From a virus, in the IMG/VR virus record IMGVR_UViG_3300042305_002284, positions 1 to 64,000 of that record: DNA of 64,000 bases. One strand, given 5' to 3'. Below the pieces are notes generated by a model that saw only the letters and a list, made by a program, of their open reading frames with translations, had not been told where the DNA came from and searched no databases. Shown here one piece after another: positions 1,750 through 41,855 of this stretch. A program made the translations under genes and the position numbers. The stretch's first letter is position 1; each line of letters begins with the position of its first letter.

Positions 1750-1769
1750 CCCTGCGCTGCATTTTTCCC

Positions 1770-1813
1770 TTGCAAGATCTGTGCCAACGGAGGGGCTGGC
1801 ATGGTTTATGCTA
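1770..1813. promoter_or_regulatory. 44-bp dyad 1 (divergent sigma-54-like arms)
   Basis: Left arm 1770-1786 read on the minus strand is TGGCACAGATCTTGCAA, a full match to sigma-54 -24/-12 spacing. Gap 1787-1796. Right arm 1797-1813 is TGGCATGGTTTATGCTA. Arms are 17 bp and the gap is 10 bp, as in all eight copies. Only 24 bp separate it from dyad 2. Confidence 0.75.
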
Positions 1814-1837
1814 TATGCCGGAAGTGGTAGGGGAGAT

Positions 1838-1881
1838 ATGCAATAAGTATGCCAATCTCCCGCCTGGCACGGTTTTTGCAA
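1838..1881. promoter_or_regulatory. 44-bp dyad 2 (divergent sigma-54-like arms)
   Basis: Left arm 1838-1854 (minus strand TGGCATACTTATTGCAT), gap 1855-1864, right arm 1865-1881 TGGCACGGTTTTTGCAA, an excellent sigma-54 consensus match (TGGCACG-N4-TTGC). A CRP-like box starts 10 bp to the right. Confidence 0.8.
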
Positions 1882-1891
1882 GACATTTATT

Positions 1892-1907
1892 TGTGATCTA
1901 AATCACA
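1892..1907. promoter_or_regulatory. CRP-like box, consensus half-sites
   Basis: TGTGATCTAAATCACA has perfect TGTGA and TCACA half-sites 6 bp apart. It lies 10 bp from the right arm of dyad 2. Confidence 0.65.
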
Positions 1908-1919
1908 CAACCCCACTTG

Positions 1920-1948
1920 ACAAAAGAAAAGCCACCCTTGCGGGTGGC
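1920..1948 (-). terminator. Intrinsic terminator of the 1975-2370 gene
   Basis: Reading leftward, a 7-bp stem GCCACCC / GGGTGGC with loop GCAA is followed by TTTTCTTTTG. The rightward TTGACA seen here is just the complement of the T tract. Confidence 0.8.
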
Positions 1949-1974
1949 CATTCAGTATATTGTGAAAGCCCTGA

Positions 1975-2370
1975 TCAGGCGGTCACAACGATACGACCAT
2001 CGTGAAAGGTGACAGTAGCCGTTTCACCCTTTGCAAGACCGAGGAGAGAAACAGGAAGGCGGATAAACTCATCCATCTCGCCAACCTTCTGAACCTTATA
2101 AGCGCGGCTGTCACCGACCTTTGCAGCGGGACGCCCACGGGCACCCGGCTCGTCATCTCCGAAGATCTCGGCGCGGAGAGCCACGAGGGCCGACTGCGTT
2201 TCCGGCTGGCTTGCAAGCAGATCACAAGCACTGTCAAAGGTTGCAGCCGCAATCTCGCTTCCGGGGCTGTTGTGAAGGCGGGTCACAGCCGCGACACCCT
2301 CCGTCAATGCCAGAAAAGCGACAGTCTGAGCGGTGACGCGAACCTTGCGAGCGGGAGTAGCGTTGGTCAT
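1975..2370 (-). CDS. Putative AbrB/MazE-like regulator, paralog 1, 131 aa
   Basis: Leftward gene, paralogous to the gene at 2944-3348 over nearly its whole length. The C-terminus (FIRLPVSLLGLAKG, then VTFHDGRIVV) resembles the swapped-hairpin DNA-binding fold of AbrB/MazE proteins (I-x-IP-x-x-L-x-x-LGL-x-x-G...DG-x-I-V); the first 85 residues match nothing I know. The frame is open upstream to 2436, but that ATG overlaps the -10 box. I chose the ATG at 2370, which has AGGACAG before it and a leader of about 58 nt. The DNA-binding call is an inference from motif resemblance; it fits the many repeated sites nearby. Confidence 0.7.
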   Translation of the reverse strand: MTNATPARKVRVTAQTVAFLALTEGVAAVTRLHNSPGSEIAAATFDSACDLLASQPETQSALVALRAEIFGDDEPGARGRPAAKVGDSRAYKVQKVGEMDEFIRLPVSLLGLAKGETATVTFHDGRIVVTA

Positions 2371-2434
2371 TGTCTCTGTCCTACAAGCGGCTTTGTCAAG
2401 TATCGGCGGTGCCGCGAACCCTTCCGATGAACCC

Positions 2435-2462
2435 ATTATAGCAGATCACATCGGCAGGTCAA
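2435..2462 (-). promoter_or_regulatory. Sigma-70-type promoter of paralog 1
   Basis: Minus strand TTGACC (2462-2457), 16-bp spacer, TATAAT (2440-2435). The spacer contains TGTGATC, a CRP-box half-site word also present in other island promoters, so a repressor or activator could act here. Confidence 0.7.
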
Positions 2463-2491
2463 GCATAGCGTCTCCGCAGATCACCGATCAC

Positions 2492-2507
2492 TATGATGGG
2501 GATCACA
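2492..2507. promoter_or_regulatory. CRP-like box
   Basis: TATGATGGGGATCACA, one mismatch in the left half-site. It ends 10 bp before the left arm of dyad 3. The box at 4791-4806 has nearly the same sequence and spacing. Confidence 0.5.
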
Positions 2508-2517
2508 TAGATCTGCC

Positions 2518-2561
2518 TTGCAAATAGTGTGCCAGCGGGAGCACTGGCATGGTTCTTGCAC
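2518..2561. promoter_or_regulatory. 44-bp dyad 3 (divergent sigma-54-like arms)
   Basis: Left arm 2518-2534 (minus strand TGGCACACTATTTGCAA), gap 2535-2544, right arm 2545-2561 TGGCATGGTTCTTGCAC. It lies between the divergent genes at 2370 (left) and 2623 (right), so both arms point toward a gene. Confidence 0.8.
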
Positions 2562-2587
2562 GGTATATAATGATCGGCGATCTCATG

Positions 2588-2616
2588 TTGACAGAACAGA
2601 TCGGACAAGGTAGAAA
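2588..2616 (+). promoter_or_regulatory. Sigma-70-type promoter, leaderless arrangement
   Basis: TTGACA (2588-2593), 17-bp spacer, TAGAAA (2611-2616). The -10 ends 6 nt before the ATG at 2623, so transcription should start at the A of the ATG. Confidence 0.6.
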
Positions 2617-2622
2617 AAGAAT

Positions 2623-2793
2623 ATGCGATGCACTCATATGACCTGTTGGCAGTGTGAAGATGAAAAGGTTGCTAAACTGCAAAAGGAAAATGAAAGGCTG
2701 AAAACAATCATTCAAGGGCTGTTGGAAATCACACCGGATACACGACATGATGAGCCGATAGTGATTGACGCCATAGATGCACTAGATGATTGA
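2623..2793 (+). CDS. Small CxxC coiled-coil protein, 56 aa, leaderless
   Basis: Reads MRCTHMTCWQCEDEKVAKLQ at its start: a CWQC zinc-knuckle-like pair, then a heptad-like helix (KLQKENERLKTIIQGLL) and an acidic C-terminus. No family is recognised; small proteins of this kind are typical phage early proteins. It is too short for usual gene callers, but a TTGACA-17-TAGAAA promoter ends 6 nt before its ATG and dyads 3 and 4 bracket it. A second ATG at codon 6 is possible, but the promoter spacing favours the first. Confidence 0.65.
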   Translation: MRCTHMTCWQCEDEKVAKLQKENERLKTIIQGLLEITPDTRHDEPIVIDAIDALDD

Positions 2794-2807
2794 CGTCGGA
2801 AGCACAC

Positions 2808-2851
2808 TTGCAAATAGTGTGCCAGCCGCGCCTCTGGCACAGATCTTGCAT
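2808..2851. promoter_or_regulatory. 44-bp dyad 4 (divergent sigma-54-like arms)
   Basis: Left arm 2808-2824, identical to that of dyad 3; gap 2825-2834; right arm 2835-2851 TGGCACAGATCTTGCAT. It sits between the 3' ends of two convergent genes, an unexpected place for promoters. Confidence 0.8.
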
Positions 2852-2862
2852 AGCAAAAACTT

Positions 2863-2878
2863 TGTGATGCCGGTCACA
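2863..2878. promoter_or_regulatory. CRP-like box, consensus half-sites
   Basis: TGTGATGCCGGTCACA with perfect half-sites, 11 bp to the right of dyad 4. Confidence 0.65.
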
Positions 2879-2889
2879 CAGGGAAACTT

Positions 2890-2919
2890 GACAAAACAAA
2901 ACCGGCCTCCGGGGCCGGT
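2890..2919 (-). terminator. Intrinsic terminator of paralog 2
   Basis: Reading leftward, a 7-bp GC-rich stem ACCGGCC / GGCCGGT with a short loop is followed by TTTGTTTTG. It has the same layout as the terminator of paralog 1. Confidence 0.8.
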
Positions 2920-2943
2920 TATGCTATACACTGTATGTGTATA

Positions 2944-3348
2944 TCAGACAGTTACAACGATACGACCATCATGGAACGTGACAGTAGCCGTAGAACCCTT
3001 CGAAAGACCAAGCAGACTAACCGGGAGACGGATGAAAGGATCCATATCGTTCACTTGCTGAACCTTGTAGGAACGTGCATCGCCAACCTTTGCAGCGGGG
3101 CGACCACGCGCACCCGGTTCGTCATCGCCAAGCAGATCCGCACGGATGGCGGCAAGGGCAGACTGTGTTTCAGGCTGTGAAGCCAACAGATCAACCGCAC
3201 CGTCAAAGGTCGCTGCCGCGATCTCGTGTCCGGGCTTGTTGTGAAGCGAGGCGACGGCAGAAACACCCTCCGTCAGTGCCAGAAAGGCGACCTGCTGCGA
3301 CGTGATACGAACCTTGCGAACGGGAGCGGGAGCGTTGAGAGCCTTCAT
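2944..3348 (-). CDS. Putative AbrB/MazE-like regulator, paralog 2, 134 aa
   Basis: Paralog of the gene at 1975-2370. Shared stretches include VAFLALTEGV, LLASQPETQSAL, GDDEPGARGRPAAKVGD and LPVSLLGL. The last 35 residues resemble an AbrB/MazE swapped-hairpin domain; the N-terminal half is unassigned. The start is clear: AGAGGT lies 7 nt before the ATG at 3348, in a leader of about 65 nt. Two diverged copies suggest either an old duplication or exchange of gene/dyad units. As the only candidate DNA-binding proteins in the island, the pair may bind the dyads or the CRP-like boxes (inference). Confidence 0.75.
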   Translation of the reverse strand: MKALNAPAPVRKVRITSQQVAFLALTEGVSAVASLHNKPGHEIAAATFDGAVDLLASQPETQSALAAIRADLLGDDEPGARGRPAAKVGDARSYKVQQVNDMDPFIRLPVSLLGLSKGSTATVTFHDGRIVVTV

Positions 3349-3419
3349 GTGTTTACCTCTTGCAATGTCAGTCGGTTACAAGCGCCCCGTGGTGACTGAC
3401 AACCGCCCGGGACATGATC

Positions 3420-3448
3420 ACTATAGCCCGATCACACTCCCGTGTCAA
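3420..3448 (-). promoter_or_regulatory. Sigma-70-type promoter of paralog 2
   Basis: Minus strand TTGACA (3448-3443), 17-bp spacer, TATAGT (3425-3420). The spacer contains TGTGATCGGG, the same word found beside dyads 5 and 7. Confidence 0.75.
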
Positions 3449-3477
3449 CGGTTGCGGTGATAGCGATCGCCATGCAA

Positions 3478-3493
3478 TGTGATCGGGCGCACA
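3478..3493. promoter_or_regulatory. CRP-like box
   Basis: TGTGATCGGGCGCACA: perfect left half, one mismatch in the right. It ends 20 bp before dyad 5. Confidence 0.5.
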
Positions 3494-3513
3494 GGAAGAA
3501 AAGAAAATATCTC

Positions 3514-3557
3514 TTGCATAAAGTATGCCAGGGGGATGTTTGGCACGTTACTTGCAA
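3514..3557. promoter_or_regulatory. 44-bp dyad 5 (divergent sigma-54-like arms)
   Basis: Left arm 3514-3530 (minus strand TGGCATACTTTATGCAA), gap 3531-3540, right arm 3541-3557 TGGCACGTTACTTGCAA. It lies between divergent genes (paralog 2 and the 3618 gene). Confidence 0.8.
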
Positions 3558-3582
3558 GGATATAACAATCTAACGACGGTGC

Positions 3583-3611
3583 TTGACAGAGATCAGATCG
3601 CCTGTTATAAC
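3583..3611 (+). promoter_or_regulatory. Sigma-70-type promoter, leaderless arrangement
   Basis: TTGACA (3583-3588), 17-bp spacer, TATAAC (3606-3611), then 6 nt to the ATG at 3618. Confidence 0.7.
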
Positions 3612-3617
3612 AGTCCC

Positions 3618-3764
3618 ATGACGAACAAGACCGCACCTCGCAGCCTCTCCGACCTTGTCATCAACGACGACGCTTGGATCTGGCAGGATGACATGATCGT
3701 GTTTCAGGATGCCAGCGTCGACGCATACAAGGACGCATGGGCTGATGATATGAGCGACGATTGA
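3618..3764 (+). CDS. Small acidic protein, 48 aa, leaderless
   Basis: Begins MTNKTAPRSLSDLVINDDAW; very acidic and Trp/Asp-rich (AWADDMSDD at the end). No family recognised. A longer open frame starts at 3525 but would contain the promoter, so the ATG at 3618 is right; its A coincides with the predicted transcription start and there is no Shine-Dalgarno. A terminator follows at 3813. Its acidity would suit a DNA-mimic or host-takeover protein, but this is speculation. Confidence 0.65.
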   Translation: MTNKTAPRSLSDLVINDDAWIWQDDMIVFQDASVDAYKDAWADDMSDD

Positions 3765-3812
3765 TCGTTATAACATAGCCCGAAAGGGACAGCAATAGCG
3801 AACAATATATAT

Positions 3813-3840
3813 AAGCCCCGAACACAGGGGCTTCTTTTTT
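3813..3840 (+). terminator. Intrinsic terminator of the 3618-3764 gene
   Basis: Stem AAGCCCC / GGGGCTT with a 7-nt loop, followed by CTTTTTT. Confidence 0.85.
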
Positions 3841-3854
3841 GTCAATAGTGAATA

Positions 3855-3870
3855 TGTGACAGGCATCACA
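3855..3870. promoter_or_regulatory. CRP-like box, consensus half-sites
   Basis: TGTGACAGGCATCACA, perfect half-sites, ending 10 bp before dyad 6. Confidence 0.65.
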
Positions 3871-3880
3871 AGAATGCCTA

Positions 3881-3924
3881 TTGCATAAACTATGCCAACC
3901 GGGCCGCTGGCACGGATATTGCAA
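3881..3924. promoter_or_regulatory. 44-bp dyad 6 (divergent sigma-54-like arms)
   Basis: Left arm 3881-3897 (minus strand TGGCATAGTTTATGCAA), gap 3898-3907 ACCGGGCCGC, right arm 3908-3924 TGGCACGGATATTGCAA. The gap is identical to that of dyad 7. It lies between convergent genes. Confidence 0.8.
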
Positions 3925-3952
3925 CCCATGCCAACCTGTTATGTGTTATGTG

Positions 3953-4270
3953 TCACAGATACTGTGCTTGACAAGCCGCACAAGCCGGCAAGTGCTGTCG
4001 CATCCGTCCCGCACTGATCTTGCGATTGCAGGGAAGCGTTACATGAACGCGATGCTTGCGACGCCCGGGAACCGGAGGGGTAATCAGTGAAATGCCGATA
4101 TTGACATTTCGAAAGTGATTGGCGCTAAACGTGTGCTCCTTATTCAGGCGCAGATTGAAGCTATTCTCATGAAGAAAAGCGTACCTGTGCCAGATCTGAA
4201 ACCCGACCATGAACCGGTCAATACGGACACGAAGGGAAGGGGTCTGTGAGGTGTTTTCGTTGTTTGTCAT
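3953..4270 (-). CDS. Hypothetical protein, 105 aa, leaderless
   Basis: Leftward gene starting MTNNENTSQTPSLRVRIDRF; basic, Arg/His-rich, with a C-terminal CAAC. No family recognised. The frame is open to 4309, but that part contains the promoter; the ATG at 4270 lies 6 nt after a TATAGT box. Its promoter DNA resembles that of the 4489-4737 gene. The last residues are encoded by sequence resembling a decayed terminator (CTTGACAAG then GC-rich repeats), so the natural end may have been lost. Confidence 0.55.
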   Translation of the reverse strand: MTNNENTSQTPSLRVRIDRFMVGFQIWHRYAFLHENSFNLRLNKEHTFSANHFRNVNIGISLITPPVPGRRKHRVHVTLPCNRKISAGRMRQHLPACAACQAQYL

Positions 4271-4276
4271 GGGATC

Positions 4277-4305
4277 ACTATATCCACAGATCACTAATGG
4301 CGCAA
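4277..4305 (-). promoter_or_regulatory. Promoter, leaderless arrangement
   Basis: Minus strand TTGCGC (4305-4300), 17-bp spacer with AGTGATCT, TATAGT (4282-4277), then 6 nt (GATCCC) to the ATG at 4270. The -35 is weak. Confidence 0.5.
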
Positions 4306-4323
4306 GCATGGATCACTTGCCGA

Positions 4324-4339
4324 TGTGATCGGGAACACA
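4324..4339. promoter_or_regulatory. CRP-like box
   Basis: TGTGATCGGGAACACA, one mismatch in the right half-site. It ends 18 bp before dyad 7. Confidence 0.5.
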
Positions 4340-4357
4340 AGAGAGAAAAAATATCTA

Positions 4358-4401
4358 TTGCATAAACCGTGCCAACCGGGCCGCTGGCATAGATATTGCA
4401 A
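4358..4401. promoter_or_regulatory. 44-bp dyad 7 (divergent sigma-54-like arms)
   Basis: Left arm 4358-4374 (minus strand TGGCACGGTTTATGCAA), gap 4375-4384, right arm 4385-4401 TGGCATAGATATTGCAA. It lies between two leftward genes, so only the left arm points at a start codon. Confidence 0.8.
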
Positions 4402-4411
4402 GGGATTAATC

Positions 4412-4427
4412 TGTGACATACCTCACA
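4412..4427. promoter_or_regulatory. CRP-like box, consensus half-sites
   Basis: TGTGACATACCTCACA, perfect half-sites, 10 bp right of dyad 7. Confidence 0.65.
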
Positions 4428-4439
4428 CTATAACACTTG

Positions 4440-4470
4440 ACAAAAGAAAACCCCGCCGATGATGGCGGGG
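4440..4470 (-). terminator. Intrinsic terminator of the 4489-4737 gene
   Basis: Reading leftward, stem CCCCGCC / GGCGGGG with a 6-nt loop, followed by TTTTCTTTTG, the same tail as the terminator of paralog 1. Confidence 0.8.
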
Positions 4471-4488
4471 CAGGAAAAGAATATATAT

Positions 4489-4737
4489 TCAGTCCCGGAC
4501 AGAACGCATATTGCGCACACACTGCACAGTGAGACGGCTCACATACACACGATAATCGGCATCGGCGTTGTGATCATTGTCACTGTCAATAGCAGCGCGG
4601 ATCTCCTGCCGCTCACTGTAACGAACGGAACGGCGGGTAGCAATCTTCACATGCCGCTTCCATGCACTACCGGGGCCAACACAGTTACGGCACAGACATT
4701 CACGAGCGATGTTTCCAGCGAGGTGTCGGGTGTTCAT
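4489..4737 (-). CDS. Small basic protein, 82 aa, leaderless
   Basis: Leftward gene starting MNTRHLAGNIARECLCRNC. It has a CLCRNC cysteine cluster, many Arg residues and a central acidic DSDNDHNADAD stretch. No family recognised; it could be a small nucleic-acid-binding protein. The ATG at 4737 lies 6 nt after TATAGT. The frame extends to 4776 only through the promoter. A strong terminator follows, so it forms its own transcription unit between dyads 7 and 8. Confidence 0.6.
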   Translation of the reverse strand: MNTRHLAGNIARECLCRNCVGPGSAWKRHVKIATRRSVRYSERQEIRAAIDSDNDHNADADYRVYVSRLTVQCVRNMRSVRD

Positions 4738-4743
4738 GGGTTC

Positions 4744-4772
4744 ACTATAATGGGAGATCACTAACAATGCAA
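4744..4772 (-). promoter_or_regulatory. Promoter, leaderless arrangement
   Basis: Minus strand TTGCAT (4772-4767), 17-bp spacer with AGTGATCT, TATAGT (4749-4744), then 6 nt (GAACCC) to the ATG. Confidence 0.55.
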
Positions 4773-4790
4773 GCACAGATCACTGATCAC

Positions 4791-4806
4791 TATGACGGAG
4801 ATCACA
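4791..4806. promoter_or_regulatory. CRP-like box
   Basis: TATGACGGAGATCACA, one mismatch in the left half-site, ending 10 bp before dyad 8. Confidence 0.5.
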
Positions 4807-4816
4807 CACAGTGCTA

Positions 4817-4860
4817 TTGCATAAAGTGTGCCAGCGGAAGCCTTGGCATGATACTTGCAA
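4817..4860. promoter_or_regulatory. 44-bp dyad 8 (divergent sigma-54-like arms)
   Basis: Left arm 4817-4833 (minus strand TGGCACACTTTATGCAA), gap 4834-4843, right arm 4844-4860 TGGCATGATACTTGCAA. It lies between divergent genes and is the last copy in the window. Confidence 0.8.
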
Positions 4861-4871
4861 GTGTATAACGC

Positions 4872-4887
4872 TGTGACCTGCATCACT
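4872..4887. promoter_or_regulatory. CRP-like box
   Basis: TGTGACCTGCATCACT, one mismatch, 11 bp right of dyad 8. Confidence 0.5.
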
Positions 4888-4905
4888 GGCTGCATTGATC
4901 TGTGC

Positions 4906-4934
4906 TTGCATGATCTGATCGGGAGAGGTATAAA
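4906..4934 (+). promoter_or_regulatory. Promoter, leaderless arrangement
   Basis: TTGCAT (4906-4911), 17-bp spacer, TATAAA (4929-4934), 6 nt, ATG at 4941. GGGAGAGG in the spacer would otherwise pass for a ribosome site, but it is 12 nt from the ATG. Confidence 0.55.
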
Positions 4935-4940
4935 AAAAGA

Positions 4941-5102
4941 ATGAACGAACAAGACAAGGTCATGAACGGCTTTTATAACCTTGCAATCATGCAAGCAATC
5001 CACAACCTTGGAAACGCTTATCTGTATGATGCGGTGGCGTTGGAAGACCTTAGAATGTTTGTCGATGCCCTTGAACAGTATGGCGAAGCGGGTGAAGCAT
5101 GA
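4941..5102 (+). CDS. Small helical protein, 53 aa
   Basis: Begins MNEQDKVMNGFYNLAIMQAI and continues with an amphipathic helix (ALEDLRMFVDALEQYGEA). No family recognised. The stop overlaps the ATG of the next gene (ATGA), so the two are probably translationally coupled. The predicted transcript starts at the ATG itself. Confidence 0.65.
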   Translation: MNEQDKVMNGFYNLAIMQAIHNLGNAYLYDAVALEDLRMFVDALEQYGEAGEA

Positions 5103-5317
5103 AAGATAATCTCCAGGATCTTGCAAAGATTGTTACACTGAGCGACGGAGAAACGTGGGACGTAGCTAGCAACACTGTAACTGTAAAGTTTCTAACATGG
5201 GAAGGTGAAGGAGCTTTGTTTGACGGTGGAAGGATTGACACAGTAGAACCAGAACACATTGTTACTGAAGTGTCACTAAAAGATCTTATCCGATGTTGGC
5301 TTGGCCGCGATACTTGA
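5099..5317 (+). CDS. Hypothetical protein, 72 aa
   Basis: Begins MKDNLQDLAKIVTLSDGETW. It is beta-rich in the middle (NTVTVKFLTWEGEGALFDGG) and ends CWLGRDT. No family recognised. It starts inside the stop of the upstream gene, with no separate promoter, so it is second in a three-gene rightward unit. Confidence 0.65.
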   Translation: MKDNLQDLAKIVTLSDGETWDVASNTVTVKFLTWEGEGALFDGGRIDTVEPEHIVTEVSLKDLIRCWLGRDT

Positions 5318-5346
5318 TCGCTGTATAACAAACACAAAGGAACATC

Positions 5347-5427
5347 ATGGAAACCTTTATCACTGCTGCTAACTTCTCTGTGTTACTTTCTTATATCGCT
5401 TGCATTGTAACCGCTTTCACTGTATAG
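5347..5427 (+). CDS. Hydrophobic micropeptide, 26 aa
   Basis: METFITAANFSVLLSYIACI followed by VTAFTV: a single hydrophobic helix. AAAGGA lies 5 nt before the ATG, a good ribosome site, and the gene follows the previous stop by 29 nt. Small membrane peptides are common among phage early genes; no specific function is claimed. Confidence 0.45.
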   Translation: METFITAANFSVLLSYIACIVTAFTV

Positions 5428-32991: not shown

Positions 32992-34256
32992 GAAAAAAAG
33001 TTATAGTTAGAGGTCCGGCCATGAGTATGTCTGGTTATGGCGAACAAACAAGGTTTGCTTTACGTTCCATGAGAGAACATGAAGATAAGTTTGATATATT
33101 TTTAGAAAATATTCCATGGGGAAGAACTGGATGGATAGCAGAAGAATCAGAAGAAACTCAATGGATTCAAATGCTCATGGCAAAAACCCATCATTATGCT
33201 CAACAACAGGGTCAGTTTGATATAAGTCTCCAAATAACTATTCCAAATGAGTTCGCAAAAATGGCTCCTGTAAATATTGGATATACAGCAGGCATAGAAA
33301 CAACAAAAGTCTCTCCACAGTGGATTGAAAAAGCAAAAATCATGGACAAAATAATTGTTGTTTCTAATCATTCAAAGCAAGTATTTGACAATACAGAATA
33401 CAAACTACAGAATCCACAAACCGGACAAATAATAGGCTTCCGAAACACGACTCCGGTAGAGGTAGTTCATTTCCCAGTAAAAATGGGAGAAAAAACAGAA
33501 ATAAATCTTGATCTAAAAACCGATTTCAACTTTCTTTCTGTCGCTCAATGGGGACCAAGGAAAAATGTTGAAGCAACGCTCGTATCGTTTCTAAGAGAGT
33601 TTGCAAACGATTCCGATCTTGGTCTTGTTCTAAAGTTGAATGTTGCAAAAAACTGCATTGCCGATAGACTGGTTTGTGAAAAAAGAATAAATAGCATTAT
33701 TAAAAATAATCCAAAAGCAAAATGTAAAGTTTATCTACTTCACGGCAATATGACAGATGCAGAAATGAGAAGTCTTTATGCTCATCCAAAAATAAAAGCG
33801 TTTGTATCAACAACTCATGGTGAAGGTTTTGGTCTTCCATTTTTTGAAGCTGCTGCAGCAGGATTGCCAGTTATTGCTCCAAAGTGGAGTGGTCACGTTG
33901 ATTTCCTTCTTGCTCCAATAAAAGAAGATGGCAAGGTACGAATGAGAAACCATTTTACAACTGTTGATTTTGATCTTGGGAATGTAAATAAAGAAGCAGT
34001 ATGGGACGGAGTTATTCAAGCAGATAGCCAGTGGTGCTTTGTAAAAGAACACAGTGTTATGGACGCTATGAGAAAAGTTCAAAAAAATCACGGTGCTGCT
34101 CTCGCTCAAGCAAGAAAATTGAAAGAGTACGTATTGGAAGAATTTGCTGAATATAAACAGATAGAAAAAGTGATTAATATTTTTAAAGATTATGTTAAAT
34201 CTGATGAAATAATGGATAATTGGCTTGCTTCAATCAATCAAGTGACTACATTATGA
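32988..34256 (+). CDS. Glycosyltransferase family 4-like, 422 aa
   Basis: Second GT-B enzyme: start MRKKVIVRGPAMSMSGYGEQ and donor site HGEGFGLPFFEAAAAGLPVI. AAAGGAG precedes the ATG at 32988. Composition matches the core. The pair may glucosylate or otherwise decorate phage DNA or virion surface, or the host envelope. Confidence 0.85.
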   Translation: MRKKVIVRGPAMSMSGYGEQTRFALRSMREHEDKFDIFLENIPWGRTGWIAEESEETQWIQMLMAKTHHYAQQQGQFDISLQITIPNEFAKMAPVNIGYTAGIETTKVSPQWIEKAKIMDKIIVVSNHSKQVFDNTEYKLQNPQTGQIIGFRNTTPVEVVHFPVKMGEKTEINLDLKTDFNFLSVAQWGPRKNVEATLVSFLREFANDSDLGLVLKLNVAKNCIADRLVCEKRINSIIKNNPKAKCKVYLLHGNMTDAEMRSLYAHPKIKAFVSTTHGEGFGLPFFEAAAAGLPVIAPKWSGHVDFLLAPIKEDGKVRMRNHFTTVDFDLGNVNKEAVWDGVIQADSQWCFVKEHSVMDAMRKVQKNHGAALAQARKLKEYVLEEFAEYKQIEKVINIFKDYVKSDEIMDNWLASINQVTTL

Positions 34257-35092
34257 AAAAATTAATTTTTATTGCTGACTATTTTGAAGATGAGATAATT
34301 GGCGGCGGCGAAAAATGTAATTCAGAAATAATTCAAAAATTGTCTAGCACTTTTGAAACAAAAGCAATCAAATCTTCACATATCAATTTAGAATTTTTAA
34401 AAAATAATAAAAATTCAACTTATATTATTGGAAATTTTCTTCTTTTATCTTTTGAATGTAAAGAATATCTACAAAATAATTGTAGATATTTTATTTATGA
34501 ACATGATCATAAATATTTAAAAAGTAGAAATCCTGCTTTATATAGAGATTATTTAATTCCAAAACAAGAGTTAATTAATTTAGATTTTTTTAAAAATGCA
34601 AAATTAATAATATGTCAAACAAATTTTCACGCAAACATTGTCAAAAAAAATTTAGAATTTGATAATATAGTATCTGCGTCGACTAATTTTTGGTCTAAAG
34701 AAGAAAAAAACATATTATTAAAATATTCTAAAACACAAAAAAAGAATATTGCTTTTATACTTGATACAAATATAGAACATAAAAATGCACTTGGTTCAAT
34801 AGAATATTGCAATAAAAATAACTTAAAATATTTTACTTTTCAAGATTTTAATTTTGAAAACTTTATTAAGAATATTAGTAAAGCTGATAAATTTATATTT
34901 TTTCCAAAAACCCCTGAAACATTTGGAAGAGTTGCAACTGAATGTAAAATACTTGGAATGAAAATACATACAAATGGTCTTTTAGGAGTTTCTCACGAAA
35001 ATTGGTTTAAAGAACTAAATGGAATTGAATTATTAAATTATATTGAAGAGTCAAATGATAAATTTTTATATTTCCTCAAGGAAAATTTATGA
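34253..35092 (+). CDS. Putative GT-B glycosyltransferase, 279 aa
   Basis: First gene of the AT-rich cassette. N-terminus MKKLIFIADYFEDEIIGGGE and C-terminal FFPKTPETFGRVATECKILG resemble a short GT4-like enzyme (E-x-F-G-R...E). It is shorter than most, so its donor is unclear. It overlaps the previous stop by 4 nt. Leu is mostly TTA and TTAA is frequent from here on, pointing to a different origin. Confidence 0.65.
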   Translation: MKKLIFIADYFEDEIIGGGEKCNSEIIQKLSSTFETKAIKSSHINLEFLKNNKNSTYIIGNFLLLSFECKEYLQNNCRYFIYEHDHKYLKSRNPALYRDYLIPKQELINLDFFKNAKLIICQTNFHANIVKKNLEFDNIVSASTNFWSKEEKNILLKYSKTQKKNIAFILDTNIEHKNALGSIEYCNKNNLKYFTFQDFNFENFIKNISKADKFIFFPKTPETFGRVATECKILGMKIHTNGLLGVSHENWFKELNGIELLNYIEESNDKFLYFLKENL

Positions 35093-35832
35093 ACAAAAAT
35101 ATAACTGTTATTTTGAATATGTATAGGCGTCCTCAAAATATGAATATGCAAATAGCCTCTGTCAGACAACAAACTATAAAGCCAAATGAAGTATGGATTT
35201 GGAAAAATCACCATGACGACAATAAATCTGTTGATTTAAATACTTTTGACGTAGATAGAAGATTTAATAATGATTTTAACTGGAAATTTTATGGTAGATT
35301 CGCCGGAGCCATGTTGGCCCAGACAGAATACGTAGCAATATTTGATGACGATACTATCCCTGGAAATAAGTGGTTTGAAAATTGTTTGGATACGATATCA
35401 AAAGTAAATGGAATATTAGGAACAGCAGGGGTTATATTGAATTCTAATATGTATGTTGATCACGAGAGATGTGGTTGGCCATCACAAAATGAACAAATAA
35501 CTAGAGTTGATTTAGTTGGACATGCATGGTTTTTTAGAAAAGATTGGTTAAAATATCTTTGGATGGAAAAACCAGCTACATGGGAAAATGGAGAGGATAT
35601 ACATTTTTCATATCTTGCTCAAAAATATGGCAATATTGAAACATATTGTCCACCGCATCCAAAATCTGATAAGATGTTTCACGGATCTTTATTAGGAATG
35701 AAGCTTGGAACTGATTCTGTTGCTACCAGCAATAATATAACAATGTCTCATAAACAGTTTTTCTCTGAAAGAGATTTGTGTGTACAAAATGCAATTAATG
35801 GTGGATGGAAAACAGTAAGGAATATCAAATGA
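35089..35832 (+). CDS. GT-A (family 2-like) glycosyltransferase, 247 aa
   Basis: Opens with ITVILNMYRRPQNMNMQIAS and carries the metal/donor motif VAIFDDDTIPG (about residue 87) and ENGEDIHFSYLAQ, the usual GT2 order. Inverting transferase with unknown sugar. Overlaps its neighbours on both sides by 4 nt. Confidence 0.8.
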   Translation: MNKNITVILNMYRRPQNMNMQIASVRQQTIKPNEVWIWKNHHDDNKSVDLNTFDVDRRFNNDFNWKFYGRFAGAMLAQTEYVAIFDDDTIPGNKWFENCLDTISKVNGILGTAGVILNSNMYVDHERCGWPSQNEQITRVDLVGHAWFFRKDWLKYLWMEKPATWENGEDIHFSYLAQKYGNIETYCPPHPKSDKMFHGSLLGMKLGTDSVATSNNITMSHKQFFSERDLCVQNAINGGWKTVRNIK

Positions 35833-36830
35833 TTTTAATTTGTTTCGGAACAAGACCAGAATATATTAAAATAAAACCAATATTGCAAGAATTTAATAAA
35901 AATAAATTTAATAATTACAAGATTCTTTTCACTGGTCAACATCAAGACTTAATATCTTTAAACAATCTAGATGTTGATTATAAATTAGAAATCCAATCTG
36001 GTTCAAATAGATTAGATTCTATATTTTGTTCATTGTTGAATAATGAAAGTATATTTGAAAAAATAACTCACGTTTTAGTGCAAGGAGATACTGCTTCCGC
36101 AGCTGCATTAGCCTTGGCAGCATTTCATAGAAATATTAAAGTAATTCATCTTGAAGCCGGATTGAGAACACACGATATCAACAATCCATATCCAGAAGAA
36201 TTTTACAGAAGAATGATATCAAATATGTCTTCTATAAATTTTTGTGTATCAGATATTAATAGAGCTTGGCTAGAACAAGAAAAATGCCCAGGTATCAATC
36301 ATGTAGTGGGAAATACTGTTTTAGATAATTTAAAAAATATTCCAACATTTTATGAAAATAAAATACTCATAACTTTACATAGAAGAGAAAATCACGATAT
36401 AATGGATAAATGGTTTGTTGAATTTGAAAAATTAGCCAATCAATATCTTGATCATGAATTTTTTTTACCGATTCATCCAAATCCAAATGTTTTAAAACAT
36501 GCTCATCTGTTAAAAAAAATTCAAGTAATAGAACCACTACCTCACGTGGACCTAATCAACTATATGAGTAGATGTAAGCTGTTAATAACTGACAGTGGAG
36601 GCTTACAAGAAGAATCATCTTTCTTAAAAAAGAAATCAATAGTTTGTAGAAAGGCGACAGAAAGAGTGGAAGGGCTAAATACTTTTAGCTTCTTATGTAA
36701 AGAACCTAATGAATTAGAAGAACTATTTTCAGAACTATTAACAAGTTACAAAATTGATGATATATGTCCATACGGTAACGGAAATTCTTCAGAAGTAATA
36801 TATGATATTATCAAACAGTACATTTACTGA
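35829..36830 (+). CDS. wecB: UDP-N-acetylglucosamine 2-epimerase, 333 aa
   Basis: Interconverts UDP-GlcNAc and UDP-ManNAc. Motifs: FGTRPEYIKIKPI at the start, VQGDTASAAALALAAFH, HLEAGLRTHD, TLHRREN and TDSGGLQEESSFL. Length is slightly short of the usual 370. With the UDP-sugar dehydrogenase at 39193 it could supply UDP-ManNAcA. The ATG at 35829 overlaps the previous stop. Confidence 0.9.
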   Translation: MILICFGTRPEYIKIKPILQEFNKNKFNNYKILFTGQHQDLISLNNLDVDYKLEIQSGSNRLDSIFCSLLNNESIFEKITHVLVQGDTASAAALALAAFHRNIKVIHLEAGLRTHDINNPYPEEFYRRMISNMSSINFCVSDINRAWLEQEKCPGINHVVGNTVLDNLKNIPTFYENKILITLHRRENHDIMDKWFVEFEKLANQYLDHEFFLPIHPNPNVLKHAHLLKKIQVIEPLPHVDLINYMSRCKLLITDSGGLQEESSFLKKKSIVCRKATERVEGLNTFSFLCKEPNELEELFSELLTSYKIDDICPYGNGNSSEVIYDIIKQYIY

Positions 36831-37524
36831 GCATTTTTCTTTCTTTAAAAATAAAATTCTAAATAAAGAAAATTTTGCTTTTGCAAGATATGCAGATGGA
36901 GAAAAAATAATATTAGAAAATAATATTATATCTTTTAATACACAAGCATATGTTGTTGATAAGTGGACTTATAATAATAATAAAATTTTTTCAAAAGATT
37001 TAATGCAAACTTGTTATCACAAAGAAGATAACTATTATTATGCTATATCTTGTAAATGTTGTGATGAAAATGGTTCAAATTATTATAAAAAATTATTAGA
37101 AAACCATAATATAACTTATTCTAATTTATTTATAAATGCAAATTACAATAAATTTATAGAATTTATTAATAAATTAGACAGAGATGTTGTTGTTTTGGCT
37201 AATAAAAATTGTTTACAATCAAATTATCCTTTTAATGTAATACAAAAAATACCTATAGAAAATGACTGCGTAAATTGGTATGAATCTAACAAAACAACAA
37301 TTATAAAAGGAATGAGTTTGTTAGCAAATAAATATAAAAATACTTTATTTTTTATTAGTGCCGGACCACTTTCAGAAATTTTGATTCATAACTTGTTTAT
37401 AGTAAATCCTGATAATACCTATATTGACATTGGTTCGGCATTAGATATATATACTCACAATAAAATAACAAGACCATATCAAAATAAAAATAGTGAATAT
37501 TCAACAAAAGAATGTGTTTTATGA
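36802..37524 (+). CDS. GT-D-type (DUF1792-like) glycosyltransferase, 240 aa
   Basis: FAFARYADGEKI near the start resembles the R-x-GDGE motif of GT-D-fold transferases, and a later LFFISAGPLSEIL and TYIDIGSALDIY also fit that fold. Very AT-rich. Overlaps the previous gene by 29 nt and the next by 4. Less certain than the neighbouring transferases. Confidence 0.55.
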   Translation: MILSNSTFTEHFSFFKNKILNKENFAFARYADGEKIILENNIISFNTQAYVVDKWTYNNNKIFSKDLMQTCYHKEDNYYYAISCKCCDENGSNYYKKLLENHNITYSNLFINANYNKFIEFINKLDRDVVVLANKNCLQSNYPFNVIQKIPIENDCVNWYESNKTTIIKGMSLLANKYKNTLFFISAGPLSEILIHNLFIVNPDNTYIDIGSALDIYTHNKITRPYQNKNSEYSTKECVL

Positions 37525-38396
37525 TTACTTTTATAAATTTAGGAAAATATGGTCGGCTTGGTAATCAGTTATATCAGTATGCAGCATTAAAAAGTTGTTC
37601 TTTAAAAAATAAATATATTTGTAAAATACCGGATATATCGAATACGTATTGGCACGGTCAGAAATGTTTATTAAATAATTTTCAATTAACTTCTGAACTT
37701 TTAACACAAGAAGACATAAGTTCAATAAGACATGAAATTAGTGAACCTATTGGATTTACAGGAGAATATTTAAATATTTTAGAAAATATAAAAGATAACA
37801 CAAATATTAATGGTTTTTTTCAAAATACAAAATATTTTTTAGAATATGAAAAAGAAATTAAAAATGAATTTAATTTTAAAGAAGATTTATTAAGAAAAGA
37901 AATAGATTTTATTAATAATTTAAAAGAAGATAAATATGATTTAGTTTCTTTGCATATAAGAACCGGTGATATGACAGACGGAACAAATTCAATTTATAAC
38001 AAATATTATGGGAAACATCCTTTGGATAAGAATAGTGTTTTTGGAAATTATATTAATAATGCACTAGAATATTTTTCAGAATTAAAAAATATTAAAATAT
38101 TAGTTTTTGTTGGTGGTAGTAGAACAGGAGATGATTCTAGCGATATACGCATGGCAAAAAATTATTTTAATGATTCTAAATTTATTGTAAATGATTCAAA
38201 TGAACCTATGACTGATTTTATTCGAATAAGCTTATGTAATCATAATATAATAAGTTTTAGTTCTACTTTTTCTTGGTGGGCAGCATTTTTAAATAAAAAT
38301 ATAAACAAAACAGTAATATGTCCAAAAAATTTTCATATTGAAAAAAATACTTCTTGTAATAACTATTTTTATCCAAAAGAATGGATACAGATTTAA
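37521..38396 (+). CDS. Alpha-1,2-fucosyltransferase family (GT11), 291 aa
   Basis: GRLGNQLYQYAALKS at the start, LVSLHIRTGDM (donor-binding H-x-R-x-GD) and FSSTFSWWAAFLN near the end are the GT11 signatures. The family transfers L-fucose from GDP-Fuc. No GDP-fucose synthesis genes are in the window, but a GDP-mannose 3,5-epimerase is, so GDP-L-galactose is a possible donor. The ATG at 37521 overlaps the previous stop and fits the family start better than 37512. Confidence 0.85.
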   Translation: MITFINLGKYGRLGNQLYQYAALKSCSLKNKYICKIPDISNTYWHGQKCLLNNFQLTSELLTQEDISSIRHEISEPIGFTGEYLNILENIKDNTNINGFFQNTKYFLEYEKEIKNEFNFKEDLLRKEIDFINNLKEDKYDLVSLHIRTGDMTDGTNSIYNKYYGKHPLDKNSVFGNYINNALEYFSELKNIKILVFVGGSRTGDDSSDIRMAKNYFNDSKFIVNDSNEPMTDFIRISLCNHNIISFSSTFSWWAAFLNKNINKTVICPKNFHIEKNTSCNNYFYPKEWIQI

Positions 38397-38407
38397 AGGA
38401 ATTTAAA

Positions 38408-39193
38408 ATGAAAGATAATAAAAATATAGAAGATGTAAAATCATATTGGAATAATAGACCATGTAACATAAGACATTCTTTTAAACAAATTGGTACAAAA
38501 GAATATTTTGATGAAGTAGAAAAAAAGAAATTTTTTGTTGAACCTCATATTATAACTTTTAGCGAATTCCAAAATTGGAACAATAAAAACGTTTTAGAAA
38601 TCGGATGTGGTATAGGTACTGCTGCCATAAATTTTGCTAGAAATGGAGCAAATTATACCGGTATAGAATTATCTGAAAAATCTTTAAATTTAACAAAAAA
38701 AAGATTTGAAGTATATTTTCAAAAGGGACAATTTTATTGTGGAAATGCAGAAAGTTTATCTTCTTTTTTACCACAATCGAAATATGATTTAATTTATTCT
38801 TTTGGAGTTATACATCACAGTCCAAATCCTGAAAAAATTATAAAAGAAATAAAAAACTACATGCATAAAGATTCTATATTAAAAATAATGTTATATTCTA
38901 AAAATTCTTGGAAAAACATAATGATTAATGGAGGGTTTGACCAGCCAGAAGCCCAATCTGGATGTCCAATTGCAATTACATATACAAAACAAGAAGTAAA
39001 AGAATTATTAAATGGTTTTGATATATTAGAAATAAAAAAAGATCATATTTTTTCTTATGATTTAGAAAGTTATAAAAATAATTTATATAAAAAACTTCCT
39101 TGGTTTGAAAGTATGTCAAAACAGCAATTTGAACATTTAGAAAAAAATCTTGGTTGGCATCTTTTAATAACTGCTAAATTAGGAGTTGATTAA
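38408..39193 (+). CDS. SAM-dependent methyltransferase, 261 aa
   Basis: Class I fold: NVLEIGCGIGTAAINFARNG (about residue 60) binds SAM; FGVIHHSPNP is the family's post-strand motif. Likely O-methylates a sugar, given its glycan neighbours. AAGGA lies 7 nt before the ATG at 38408, which I prefer to 38381. Confidence 0.8.
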   Translation: MKDNKNIEDVKSYWNNRPCNIRHSFKQIGTKEYFDEVEKKKFFVEPHIITFSEFQNWNNKNVLEIGCGIGTAAINFARNGANYTGIELSEKSLNLTKKRFEVYFQKGQFYCGNAESLSSFLPQSKYDLIYSFGVIHHSPNPEKIIKEIKNYMHKDSILKIMLYSKNSWKNIMINGGFDQPEAQSGCPIAITYTKQEVKELLNGFDILEIKKDHIFSYDLESYKNNLYKKLPWFESMSKQQFEHLEKNLGWHLLITAKLGVD

Positions 39194-40269
39194 TGAATAT
39201 AGGGATTCTAGGAATAGGTAAATTAGGTTTATGCTTTGCACTAACGCTAGAAAGAGCAGGATATAATGTAATTGGTGTGGATATAAATAAAGACTATATT
39301 GAACAAATTAATAATAAGTCTTTAAAATCCTCAGAAGAAAATGTTGAAAATTATTTAAAATTAAGTAAAAATTTTTATGCTACAATCGACTTATTTTATG
39401 CGATTAATAATTGTAAAATATTATTTATCATAGTTGCTACTCCTTCTTTACAAAACGGCGAATACGATCACTCACAAATAGAATCATTAATCGATAAAAT
39501 TAAACTTTTAGGAAAACAAAAACAGGAAAAGCATTTAGTAGTTTGTAGCACTACAATGCCTGAATATTGTGATACTATTCAGGAAAAATTAAAAAATTAT
39601 AATTATACTATAAGTTATAATCCTGAATTTATAGCACAGGGAACAATTCTAAAAAATCAAGAAAAACCAGATATGGTTTTAATTGGAGAAGGTTCGCCAG
39701 AAGCTGGAGATATAATAGAAAGCATATATAAAAAGCATACTACAAATAATCCATCAATTCACCGTATGTCTCGTACAGAAGCTGAATTGTGTAAAATATC
39801 TCTTAATTGTTTTTTAACAACTAAAATTGCATACGCCAATATGATTGGAGATATTGCAATTCGCGCAAAATGCAATCCAGAAAAAATATTAAAAGCCATA
39901 GGCTCTGATTCTAGAATTGGAAGTAAATATTTAAATTATGGATATGGTTTTGGTGGTCCTTGTTTCCCTAGAGATAATAGAGCACTTTCTATATTTGCAG
40001 AAAATAAAAATATTGATGCAATTATAAGTAAAGCTAGTGATAAAAGTAATGAAAAACATTTAAATTATCAAATTGAAAATTTTATATCTGAAAATCAAGA
40101 CAAAACAAAACAAATTTTTTTTGATTACGTAACATATAAAAAAGAATCTATACTTCTTACAGAATCACAACAACTAAAATTTGCTATAGCTTTAAAAAAT
40201 TTAGGATATAATATAGTTATAAAAGATTCTCGAGAAGAGGTAATTAAACAATTAGAAAGTATATTATAA
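39193..40269 (+). CDS. UDP-glucose/UDP-ManNAc dehydrogenase family, 358 aa
   Basis: Four-electron oxidation of a nucleotide sugar to a uronic acid. N-terminal Rossmann GILGIGKLGLCFALTLE, central LNCFLTTKIAYANMIGDI, and the catalytic Cys in YGFGGPCFPRDN. Shorter than typical (about 430), with a reduced C-terminal domain. With WecB it may make UDP-ManNAcA (inference). Confidence 0.85.
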   Translation: MNIGILGIGKLGLCFALTLERAGYNVIGVDINKDYIEQINNKSLKSSEENVENYLKLSKNFYATIDLFYAINNCKILFIIVATPSLQNGEYDHSQIESLIDKIKLLGKQKQEKHLVVCSTTMPEYCDTIQEKLKNYNYTISYNPEFIAQGTILKNQEKPDMVLIGEGSPEAGDIIESIYKKHTTNNPSIHRMSRTEAELCKISLNCFLTTKIAYANMIGDIAIRAKCNPEKILKAIGSDSRIGSKYLNYGYGFGGPCFPRDNRALSIFAENKNIDAIISKASDKSNEKHLNYQIENFISENQDKTKQIFFDYVTYKKESILLTESQQLKFAIALKNLGYNIVIKDSREEVIKQLESIL

Positions 40270-40273
40270 TAAT

Positions 40274-40999
40274 ATGTTAAATATTAAAATACCACAAAAT
40301 ATAACAAATATTTGTATAGACGTTGGTACTTCTTGTAATGCTCCATTTTCTGCAGAAATCTTAAAAAAACAAAAAAATACCATAATATTTGGCTTTGAAC
40401 CAAATCCACAAAATGTTGAAAGTTTACATACTGGACATGGAAAAGCAATAGAAAAATGGATTTTAAATCCTAGAATATGTTTAAGTGAAAATGCTATATA
40501 TGATAACAACATAAAAGTATGTTCTTTAAGTGATAATAATAATATATTTGAAATATTCGAATATGCAATAGATGATGTTCAGGAAGAAACTTTTAAAAAT
40601 TTTTATTGTACTTCAGAAGAGAATACTGGCTGTTCTAGTCTAAAAAAACCAATTGAAAATATATTAAAAGTTTCTATTAAAAATAAAATAAATGTAAAAG
40701 TAATACCTTTATTTTATTTATTACAACAAATAGACTGGAAAAAATATAATTATATTGATGTTTTAAAAACAGATACCCAATCAAATGATTTAAATGTTAT
40801 TAAAAGTTGTAAAGATTATATTAAAAATATAAAATATATTCAGTCAGAATATCATACAGGTGGTCAATATGAGGATGAAGATTCTCGAGAACAAAGTTTT
40901 AATAATTTTGAAGAATATATGAAAAAATATGATTTTAATTTATTAAATAGAGATTCACATGATATTATTTATATAAATAAAAGATTTAATAATGAGTAA
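40274..40999 (+). CDS. FkbM-like methyltransferase, 241 aa
   Basis: ICIDVGTSCNAPFSAEIL and FGFEPNP near the start, and YIDVLKTDTQSNDLNVIKSC later, match the FkbM family (D-x-G...F-E-P-x-P...LK-x-D-x-Q). A sugar O-methyltransferase is likely. Extremely AT-rich. Confidence 0.75.
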   Translation: MLNIKIPQNITNICIDVGTSCNAPFSAEILKKQKNTIIFGFEPNPQNVESLHTGHGKAIEKWILNPRICLSENAIYDNNIKVCSLSDNNNIFEIFEYAIDDVQEETFKNFYCTSEENTGCSSLKKPIENILKVSIKNKINVKVIPLFYLLQQIDWKKYNYIDVLKTDTQSNDLNVIKSCKDYIKNIKYIQSEYHTGGQYEDEDSREQSFNNFEEYMKKYDFNLLNRDSHDIIYINKRFNNE

Positions 41000-41855
41000 T
41001 TTATTTATATGCCATTCAAGTGATGCTGGAAATACTGAAGGTATTGGAGCAATGGTACAATATCAAATTTATACCTATGCTTTATCAAAAATTTTAAATA
41101 TTGGATTCGCTTTTAAGCCTTTTACTCGTATGCAACATTATCAATACTTTGATATAACACAAGAAAAATTTTGTTCTGATATAAATAATTTTTTTAATTT
41201 TCCAAATGATTTATCAGAAGAAGCTAAAGTAATTGATGTAAAATTAGATGATAATTTAATAAATCTTATCAGTAATTTTAGAACAAGTAATAATAAAATT
41301 TTATTTAATATAAAAGATGAATATTTTATGAAAAAAGCTGAACAATATTTAGATTATATAGAAAATTCAAATATATTAAACAATATTATAAAAAACATTA
41401 AAATTGAAGATAATTTAAAATATTTTAATAATGAATTTTTTAATATTTGTTTACACATTCGAAAAGCTACTATTACAGATTGCGATTTTTCACCTATAAG
41501 AGAACTTTTTGATCATCAATCTAAAGATAAAATAATCAATATTTTACAACAATCAATTAATAAATTTGCCAATAATGAACAATATAAAATTCATATTTAT
41601 TCACAAGGAAAGATAGACGATTTTGATTTTATTTTAAAAAATTTTAAAAATAATGTTATTTTTCACATAGACGAATATCCGATAGTATCGTTATATCACA
41701 TGATAAATTCTGATCTTTTAATTATGTCTAATAGTTCTTTTAGTTATATTGCTCATTTATTATCAAAAAATATAACTATAGTGAGAAATAATTTTTATCA
41801 TAGAACTTATAATAAAAATAAATATTTTTATGATTCAAGAGGAAATATAATATGA
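40992..41855 (+). CDS. Fucosyltransferase-like protein, 287 aa
   Basis: FNICLHIRKATITD (about residue 155) and SDLLIMSNSSFSYIAHLLS are reminiscent of the H-x-R and S-SFS motifs of GT11/GT23-type fucosyltransferases, but the whole sequence is divergent. It could use GDP-linked L-sugars. Overlaps the epimerase gene downstream by 4 nt. Confidence 0.5.
   Translation: MSNLFICHSSDAGNTEGIGAMVQYQIYTYALSKILNIGFAFKPFTRMQHYQYFDITQEKFCSDINNFFNFPNDLSEEAKVIDVKLDDNLINLISNFRTSNNKILFNIKDEYFMKKAEQYLDYIENSNILNNIIKNIKIEDNLKYFNNEFFNICLHIRKATITDCDFSPIRELFDHQSKDKIINILQQSINKFANNEQYKIHIYSQGKIDDFDFILKNFKNNVIFHIDEYPIVSLYHMINSDLLIMSNSSFSYIAHLLSKNITIVRNNFYHRTYNKNKYFYDSRGNII

Follow-up and report, generated by a model that had tools for sequence, protein, structure and literature searches.

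Why does a phage place what looks like a bacterial promoter element, always in facing pairs, in every gap between the genes of one small island? This question is raised by the first 64,000 nucleotides (the window) of IMG/VR record IMGVR_UViG_3300042305_002284, an uncultured virus of 124,360 bases, in which a first-pass annotation made from the letters alone had noticed eight 44-bp dyads between positions 1770 and 4860. Each dyad consists of two 17-bp arms which, read outward, resemble the -24/-12 promoter element of sigma-54 (RpoN). As described below, the same arms recur as helically phased pairs and arrays in many other viral contigs, a pattern suggesting that what many phages carry are not promoters but places where sigma-54, or a protein resembling it, can dock.

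Eight dyads of sigma-54-like arms in one island

Using the query TTGCA-N7-TGCCA-N10-TGGCA-N7-TGCAA with up to three mismatches, we recovered all eight predicted dyads by pattern match, namely, D1 (1770-1813), D2 (1838-1881), D3 (2518-2561), D4 (2808-2851), D5 (3514-3557), D6 (3881-3924), D7 (4358-4401), and D8 (4817-4860). Each deviates from the query at no more than one position, whereas 100 shuffles, serving as the control, contained none. The layout of arm, gap, and arm (17-10-17) is kept in 8/8 dyads, without exception, as the first-pass annotation had claimed. Its description of the arms as close to TGGCAY-N6-TGCAA holds for the core of the motif but not fully for its outer end: the window arm reads TGGCAY-R-N4-[T/A]TGCA, with GG-N10-GC in 16/16 arms and T12 in 11/16 (A in the remainder), and 15/16 arms end in TGCA. 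The remaining arm (1797-1813, the right arm of D1) has TGCT and ends in TGCTA, and a few others end in TGCAT or TGCAC. The 10 bp from GG to GC equal the distance within the sigma-54 -24/-12 element. All 16 arms of the record lie in a 3-kb island, between 1771 and 4859; the rest of the 124,360 bases contains no more dyads and no more single arms of the form TGGCAYR-N4-[TA]TGC[AT].

The sigma-54 consensus derived from 186 promoters, mrNrYTGGCACG-N4-TTGCWNNw (PMC2725144), extends beyond the letters that define the arms. To compare these positions, we used a scan of IMG/VR for exact N10 dyads which fixed TGCA and TGGCA alone and left the other arm positions unspecified. Among the matches outside the largest group of contigs, the consensus reappears within the arm (Y6 in 18/18, R7 in 15/18, T12 in 15/18) as well as in front of TGGCA (Y-1 in 16/18, R-2 in 14/18, R-4 in 14/18). 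Similarly, in four related islands, Y-1 precedes TGGCA in 63/64 arms, with R-2 (42/64) and R-4 (37/64) being weak. One-mismatch variants near arrays almost never affect GG or the TG of TTGC; those tolerated change T1 to A or C, C4 to T, or positions 12 and 16. The arms therefore match the extended sigma-54 consensus, including at positions that were not searched for. A CytR-type or other symmetric dimer operator was ruled out, as TG does not replace GG and the arms accept TTGCT.

Bacterial head-to-head pairs served as a positive control. In Stenotrophomonas (L054), such pairs neighbor flagellin genes; at L113, L057, and L155, they neighbor genes for sigma-54 activators. Of the bacterial genomes having head-to-head pairs, 15/18 encode a sigma-54 DNA-binding domain. 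The first-pass reading of the arms as sigma-54-like thus has much stronger support than it could show by itself, from the consensus positions flanking the arms, the tolerated mismatches, and the genes that accompany these bacterial pairs. As a separate observation, a head-to-head pair with an 18- to 19-bp gap recurs in many Stenotrophomonas genomes (e.g., L054:1568-1617), near flagellin where checked. Both of its arms are conserved, although one would suffice as a promoter.

Phased pairs and arrays in many phage groups

The arms are not confined to this phage. In IMG/VR, whose contigs are partial and for which the contig and group totals given here are lower bounds, the exact N10 dyad occurs in 45 contigs. 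Pairs of TGGCAYRNNNNTTGCW with variable gaps occur in at least 120 contigs for each arrangement, be it head to head, tail to tail, or tandem. Overall, at least 325 contigs were found, which fall into at least 154 groups defined through shared proteins; the largest group comprises 111 contigs. A reversed tandem motif used as a control, about twice as strict as its counterpart (first letter fixed), yielded 1 contig versus at least 120. In 369 gammaproteobacterial genomes, compared with IMG/VR by counts rather than densities, we found no strict head-to-head and no short-gap tail-to-tail pair. The published papers that we searched contained no account of sigma-54 site arrays in phages.

For the distances between neighboring arms, each group was counted once per gap, within the scanned ranges. 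Among the groups listed, head-to-head gaps measure 5 to 10 bp (n = 36), 15 to 22 bp (n = 24), or 25 to 32 bp (n = 16), with none at 11 to 14 bp or 23 to 24 bp (n = 0 each). Tail-to-tail gaps are concentrated at 1 to 6 bp (n = 70), and tandem gaps at 8 to 14 bp (n = 51), with 2 at 15 to 18 bp and the next from 19 bp up. The periodicity of the gaps lies above all 2000 uniform controls in each class; the best head-to-head period is 10.9 bp, and tandem gaps are weakly periodic at 10.5 bp. The gaps thus cluster by helical turns. The first-pass annotation had expected that two holoenzymes could not sit on both arms of a dyad at once; the phasing instead suggests joint occupancy of neighboring arms by a compact binder. 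Although the gap is always 10 bp in the window phage, this is no general rule, given that head-to-head pairs of other phages fall into any of the three ranges above.

In the 111-contig group (L001, L003, L005, L006, and relatives), arrays of about 8 to 12 arms lie between divergent gene clusters, one of which begins with terminase genes, and TTGACA follows 15 to 20 bp past the last arm. Matches from a genome scan in planctomycetes (gap 19, TGCACGGCACGTGCCA) were rejected as sigma-54 arms and assigned to a different palindromic repeat. Planctomycetaceae loci, including L051, L052, and L067, hold palindromic repeats of the type TGCACGGCACGTGCCA-N19-TGGCACGTGCCGTGCA, abundant in several planctomycete genomes and apparently unrelated to sigma-54 arms.

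Closer to the window, a gene of the island encoding an AbrB-like protein was found in four other uncultured-phage contigs in IMG/VR (L258, L259, L260, and L261). Each has its own GC-rich island, where some seven to nine dyads share the arms of the window but have a gap of 26 bp (once 27). Arm positions and spacings are identical in the islands of L258 and L259, and L164, a locus of the contig of L260, shares its flanking genes with the window. The dyad that one would look for in related genomes is thus present with its arms but not with its 10-bp gap. The first-pass annotation had taken the constant spacing to mean that one protein reads the fixed dyad as a whole, which the 26-bp gap contradicts. 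Since the arms are the same while the gaps are 26 or 10 bp, we regard the arms as the constant part and the gap as set per lineage. In the window, D1 and D2 are closely paired, 24 bp apart, at the AT-rich end of the island; such a double dyad is kept at this end in L258/L259 and L261, and the L260 locus stops short of there. Island gene content differs among the relatives, with the AbrB-like gene in two copies.

Two further features of the relatives deserve mention. The 26-bp gaps of L258, L259, L260, and L261 contain a central palindrome near CCGAACCGGTTCGG, absent from the 10-bp gaps of the window, which is probably the site of one more protein. In addition, a conserved noncoding segment (L258:4215-4440 and L261:12800-13090) separates the double dyad at the island end from the last AbrB-like gene; it is probably structured, includes a promoter-like start and a terminator of its own, and has no Rfam match.

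Dyad placement is unlike promoter placement

Every intergenic gap of the window island holds a dyad, irrespective of gene orientation. D3 (between AbrB-like gene 1 and a 56-amino-acid open reading frame [ORF]), D5, and D8 separate divergent genes, D4 and D6 convergent genes, and D7 codirectional genes; D2 lies 94 bp past the 3′ end of AbrB-like gene 1, and D1 is outermost. Seven window arms face gene 5′ ends, and seven face gene 3′ ends, a placement unlike that of promoters. Elsewhere, where contexts were counted by group from mechanical gene calls, the arrays of the groups listed are found between divergent genes in 46 cases, codirectional genes in 53, and convergent genes in 16, and inside long ORFs in 4. 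In the codirectional gaps, 124 arms point with transcription and 134 against it. Arms elsewhere are thus orientation-neutral, and the arrays are almost always intergenic. The forced-choice divergent sigma-54 switch that the first-pass annotation had offered as one possibility is not borne out by these counts. Moreover, with tail-to-tail gaps of 1 to 6 bp and CRP-like sites 2 bp past the -12 element (see below), holoenzymes would not fit on every site.

CRP-like sites at fixed distances from the arms

With CRP-like sites defined by at least 8/10 letters of TGTGA-N6-TCACA, we counted 72 in 19.9 kb of islands, whereas the remaining 58 kb of the window has 18 and shuffled islands average 7. In the four related islands, 36 CRP-like sites lie outside arms at 2, 11 to 13, 18 to 21, or 29 to 30 bp, and none lies at any other distance within 44 bp outside the arms. 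In the window, sites on the minus strand are found outside the left arms of D1 (1734-1749, 21 bp away, 9/10 letters), D3 (2492-2507, 11 bp, 9/10), D5 (3478-3493, 21 bp, 9/10), D6 (3855-3870, 11 bp, 10/10), D7 (4324-4339, 19 bp, 9/10), and D8 (4791-4806, 11 bp, 9/10). Those on the plus strand are found outside the right arms of D2 (1892-1907, 11 bp, 10/10), D4 (2863-2878, 12 bp, 10/10), D6 (3942-3957, 18 bp, 9/10), D7 (4412-4427, 11 bp, 10/10), and D8 (4872-4887, 12 bp, 9/10). As the distance classes are alike for arm gaps of 10 and 26 bp, a CRP-like protein would be positioned by the adjacent arm. These sites are special to the island family; in other phage groups, CRP-like sites are scattered, with no preferred distance. 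Inhibition of a sigma-54 promoter by CRP with cyclic AMP has been described (PMC3900584) and likewise combines CRP and sigma-54 control at one locus; in contrast with that system, the CRP-like sites of the window lie downstream of the -12 element.

A host protein as the probable binder

Which protein reads the arms? No sigma-54 DNA-binding domain was found in the array-bearing records searched (0/46; 19 + 27), no sigma-54 activator in 19 phage records, and no AraC-type domain in 30 array-bearing phage records. The phage-encoded mimic that had been proposed as the alternative to a switch was thus not found in the form of either DNA-binding domain, although a mimic from some other family may exist. 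Terminase is the sole protein family present in many array groups (47 of the 154 listed, near the array in 26); no other family occurs in more than 7 of the 154 groups listed, and no DNA-binding protein is common to the groups. The AbrB-like proteins are repressor candidates for the island family of the window only, having relatives in 4 IMG/VR contigs as opposed to arms in at least 154 groups. With no sigma-54 domain in the array-bearing records searched and no widely shared family, the binder is probably a host protein, and among host proteins sigma-54 is the one known for this specificity. RpoN is able to bind promoters without core polymerase (PMC2725144), a property that would suit compact, phased, and orientation-neutral docking.

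Our preferred explanation, to which we give a little short of an even chance, is that the arms are sigma-54 elements and the dyads docking sites at which host sigma-54 would regulate or be titrated without starting transcription. Each arm would be a -24/-12 recognition element, and both arms of a dyad would be occupied, in the same helical register, by a protein of the host; the likeliest one is sigma-54, either by itself or together with core RNA polymerase. In the window island, the resulting compact complex would include a CRP-like protein bound 11 to 12 or 18 to 21 bp outside the arm. Standing between small genes that appear to be transcribed independently, from their own sigma-70-type promoters and up to their own terminators, such complexes might modulate, repress, or insulate them. 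Multiplication of the phage DNA would also copy 16 consensus sites per genome and could thereby titrate sigma-54 from the host.

Several points weigh against this explanation. Where a CRP-like site follows an arm by 2 bp, or tail-to-tail arms are 1 to 6 bp apart, sigma-54 would have to be bound without core polymerase, and free sigma-54 is a weak binder of most promoters. Orientation-neutrality and phasing would be accounted for no less well by a transcription factor of the same specificity. Titration may occur but is an idea without direct support, and the gene calls outside the island are mechanical.

Such a factor, a compact protein of the host or the phage that shares the asymmetric 16- to 17-bp specificity of sigma-54 and uses the arms as operators, is a rather unlikely but serious contender. 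The candidate type would be an AraC/XylS-like protein, with two boxes 11 to 12 bp apart, working with CRP. Regulatory regions of the CRP plus AraC/XylS type in Gammaproteobacteria contain asymmetric two-box half-sites of ~17 bp, as inverted pairs near CRP sites and at helical distances; the dyads and their CRP-like neighbors resemble them in site size, asymmetry, and arrangement. A compact factor would fit pairs that are orientation-neutral, intergenic, and helically phased in all three configurations, as well as CRP-like sites phased to the adjacent arm down to 2 bp, and one of the bacterial pairs is found 52 bp ahead of an AraC-family gene. However, the 30 array-bearing records searched lack an AraC-type domain, the groups lack a common DNA-binding protein, and a single motif across unrelated phage groups of very different GC is unlike phage-specific operators. 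The flanking positions and the mismatch tolerance are those of sigma-54. If the arms are indeed sigma-54 elements, they could be true divergent promoters, with each arm driving a gene or RNA and the overlap making the two directions mutually exclusive. We consider this improbable, although the -24/-12 sequences are near perfect, three of the eight dyads (D3, D5, and D8) lie between divergent genes, and arrays are commoner between divergent than between convergent genes. Half of the window arms with a neighboring gene face its 3′ end, arms in codirectional contexts are neutral, would-be start sites are overlapped by CRP-like sites, the island genes have sigma-70-type promoters, and an enhancer-binding protein was not found in the 19 phage records.

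Two readings without a transcriptional role appear less plausible still. The presence of a dyad in every intergenic gap whatever its orientation, the variable gene content of the related islands, and the two copies of the AbrB-like gene could be accounted for if the dyads delimited gene cassettes that can be exchanged, or were the ends used in recombination or transposition, with every island gene enclosed by inward-facing TGGCA...TGCCA. This is very unlikely, for elsewhere the same arms make gene-free tandem arrays with tail-to-tail gaps of 2 to 5 bp, the gaps differ in sequence and length, and no recombinase gene was recognized in the island. We give even less credence to origin, packaging, or partition sites of a replication or terminase protein. 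The recurrence of terminase near arrays and the location of the largest group's arrays between divergent operons speak for it, but terminase is simply the most recognizable phage protein, and both the eight dispersed dyads of the window and the sigma-54 consensus would be left unexplained.

Returning to docking by sigma-54, how does it compare with known systems? The arms share with sigma-54 promoters (PMC2725144) the GG-N10-GC core, YTGGCAYR, TTGCW, the upstream R and Y positions, and the pattern of tolerated mismatches. Different from such promoters, they form phased pairs and arrays in all orientations, are not gene-oriented and often lie at 3′ ends, and come without an activator in the 19 phage records searched. 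The stoperators of cluster A mycobacteriophages (PMC9283540) likewise are asymmetric sites of one kind that recur many times across a phage genome, as the arms do between the genes of the window island. Unlike stoperators, which belong to one phage group with its own repressors, the arms have a different sequence, are paired rather than single, have no identified repressor gene, and follow a motif common to unrelated phages.

In its widest form, the docking explanation would hold that in more than 150 unrelated viral contig groups, phased sigma-54 arrays capture host sigma-54 or its holoenzyme, silencing the host regulon (flagella, pili, phage-shock, and nitrogen functions) and building control complexes between phage genes; we regard this as possible, if on the doubtful side. 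Were sigma-54 the binder, phages would engage a global host regulator widely and in a manner undescribed in the papers searched. Were it another protein, a transcription factor with sigma-54-like specificity, not yet known, would serve many phage groups. In both cases, the helical rules (10 or 20 bp head to head, 2 to 5 bp tail to tail, and 2, 12, or 20 bp to CRP-like sites) inform on contacts between the bound proteins.

Genes and signals of the island and its phage

The island (about 1750-5350) has a GC content of 50.6%, compared to 34.8% in the rest. Its genes are small, of mixed orientation, and located between the dyads. AbrB-like gene 1 (1975-2370, minus strand), conserved in the related islands, and its paralogue, AbrB-like gene 2 (2944-3348, minus strand), are 78% identical; the paralogues share a conserved helical N-terminal part and a GARGRPAAK linker, with relatives in the four viral contigs above only. 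Gene 1 has no Pfam match and weak matches to swapped-hairpin folds: the AlphaFold model of the AbrB-like protein is of moderate quality (predicted local distance difference test score of 71), and its best PDB matches are MazE/AbrB/VapB hairpins, none of them significant. The remaining ORFs are one of 56 amino acids between D3 and D4 (2623-2793, plus strand; no family), one of 48 amino acids with the motif DDAWxWxDDM (3618-3764, plus strand) and one of 82 amino acids (4489-4737, minus strand), both with homologues in related islands, and an uncertain one of 105 amino acids between D6 and D7 (3953-4270, minus strand). Among the island proteins, there was no Pfam match over the cutoff, no convincing PHROGs match, and no plasmid relative.

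Predicted sigma-70-type promoters, all on the minus strand, precede AbrB-like gene 1 (TTGACC-16-TATAAT, 2435-2462) and AbrB-like gene 2 (TTGACA-17-TATAGT, 3420-3448), and a third reads leftward outside D1 (TTGACA-18-GATAAT, 1705-1734). Putative intrinsic terminators follow AbrB-like gene 1 (1930-1949, minus strand, between gene and D2), AbrB-like gene 2 (2900-2920, minus strand, between gene and D4), the 48-amino-acid ORF (3813-3833, plus strand, ahead of D6), and the 82-amino-acid ORF (4450-4471, minus strand, between gene and D7). Rfam returned subthreshold matches only.

As for the phage itself, a megablast comparison of the first 9 kb with 50,697 phage records gave no match. No isolated phage matched the DNA of the window, of an L001 array, or of L222 or L040, and relatives at the protein level are distant. 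The phage encodes PhoH, with relatives of <40% identity, and sugar-nucleotide genes. Ahead of the island, 13-bp tandem repeats (448-504) give way to a long AT-rich stretch (about 500-1700) that has no convincing genes and numerous TATATAC/GTATATA and TGCCGG motifs; AT-rich DNA of a similar kind lies past the island end in L258 and L261. Finally, a block of glycosyltransferase and sugar-nucleotide genes at 34000-42000 has a GC content down to 21%, far under that of the rest of the phage.

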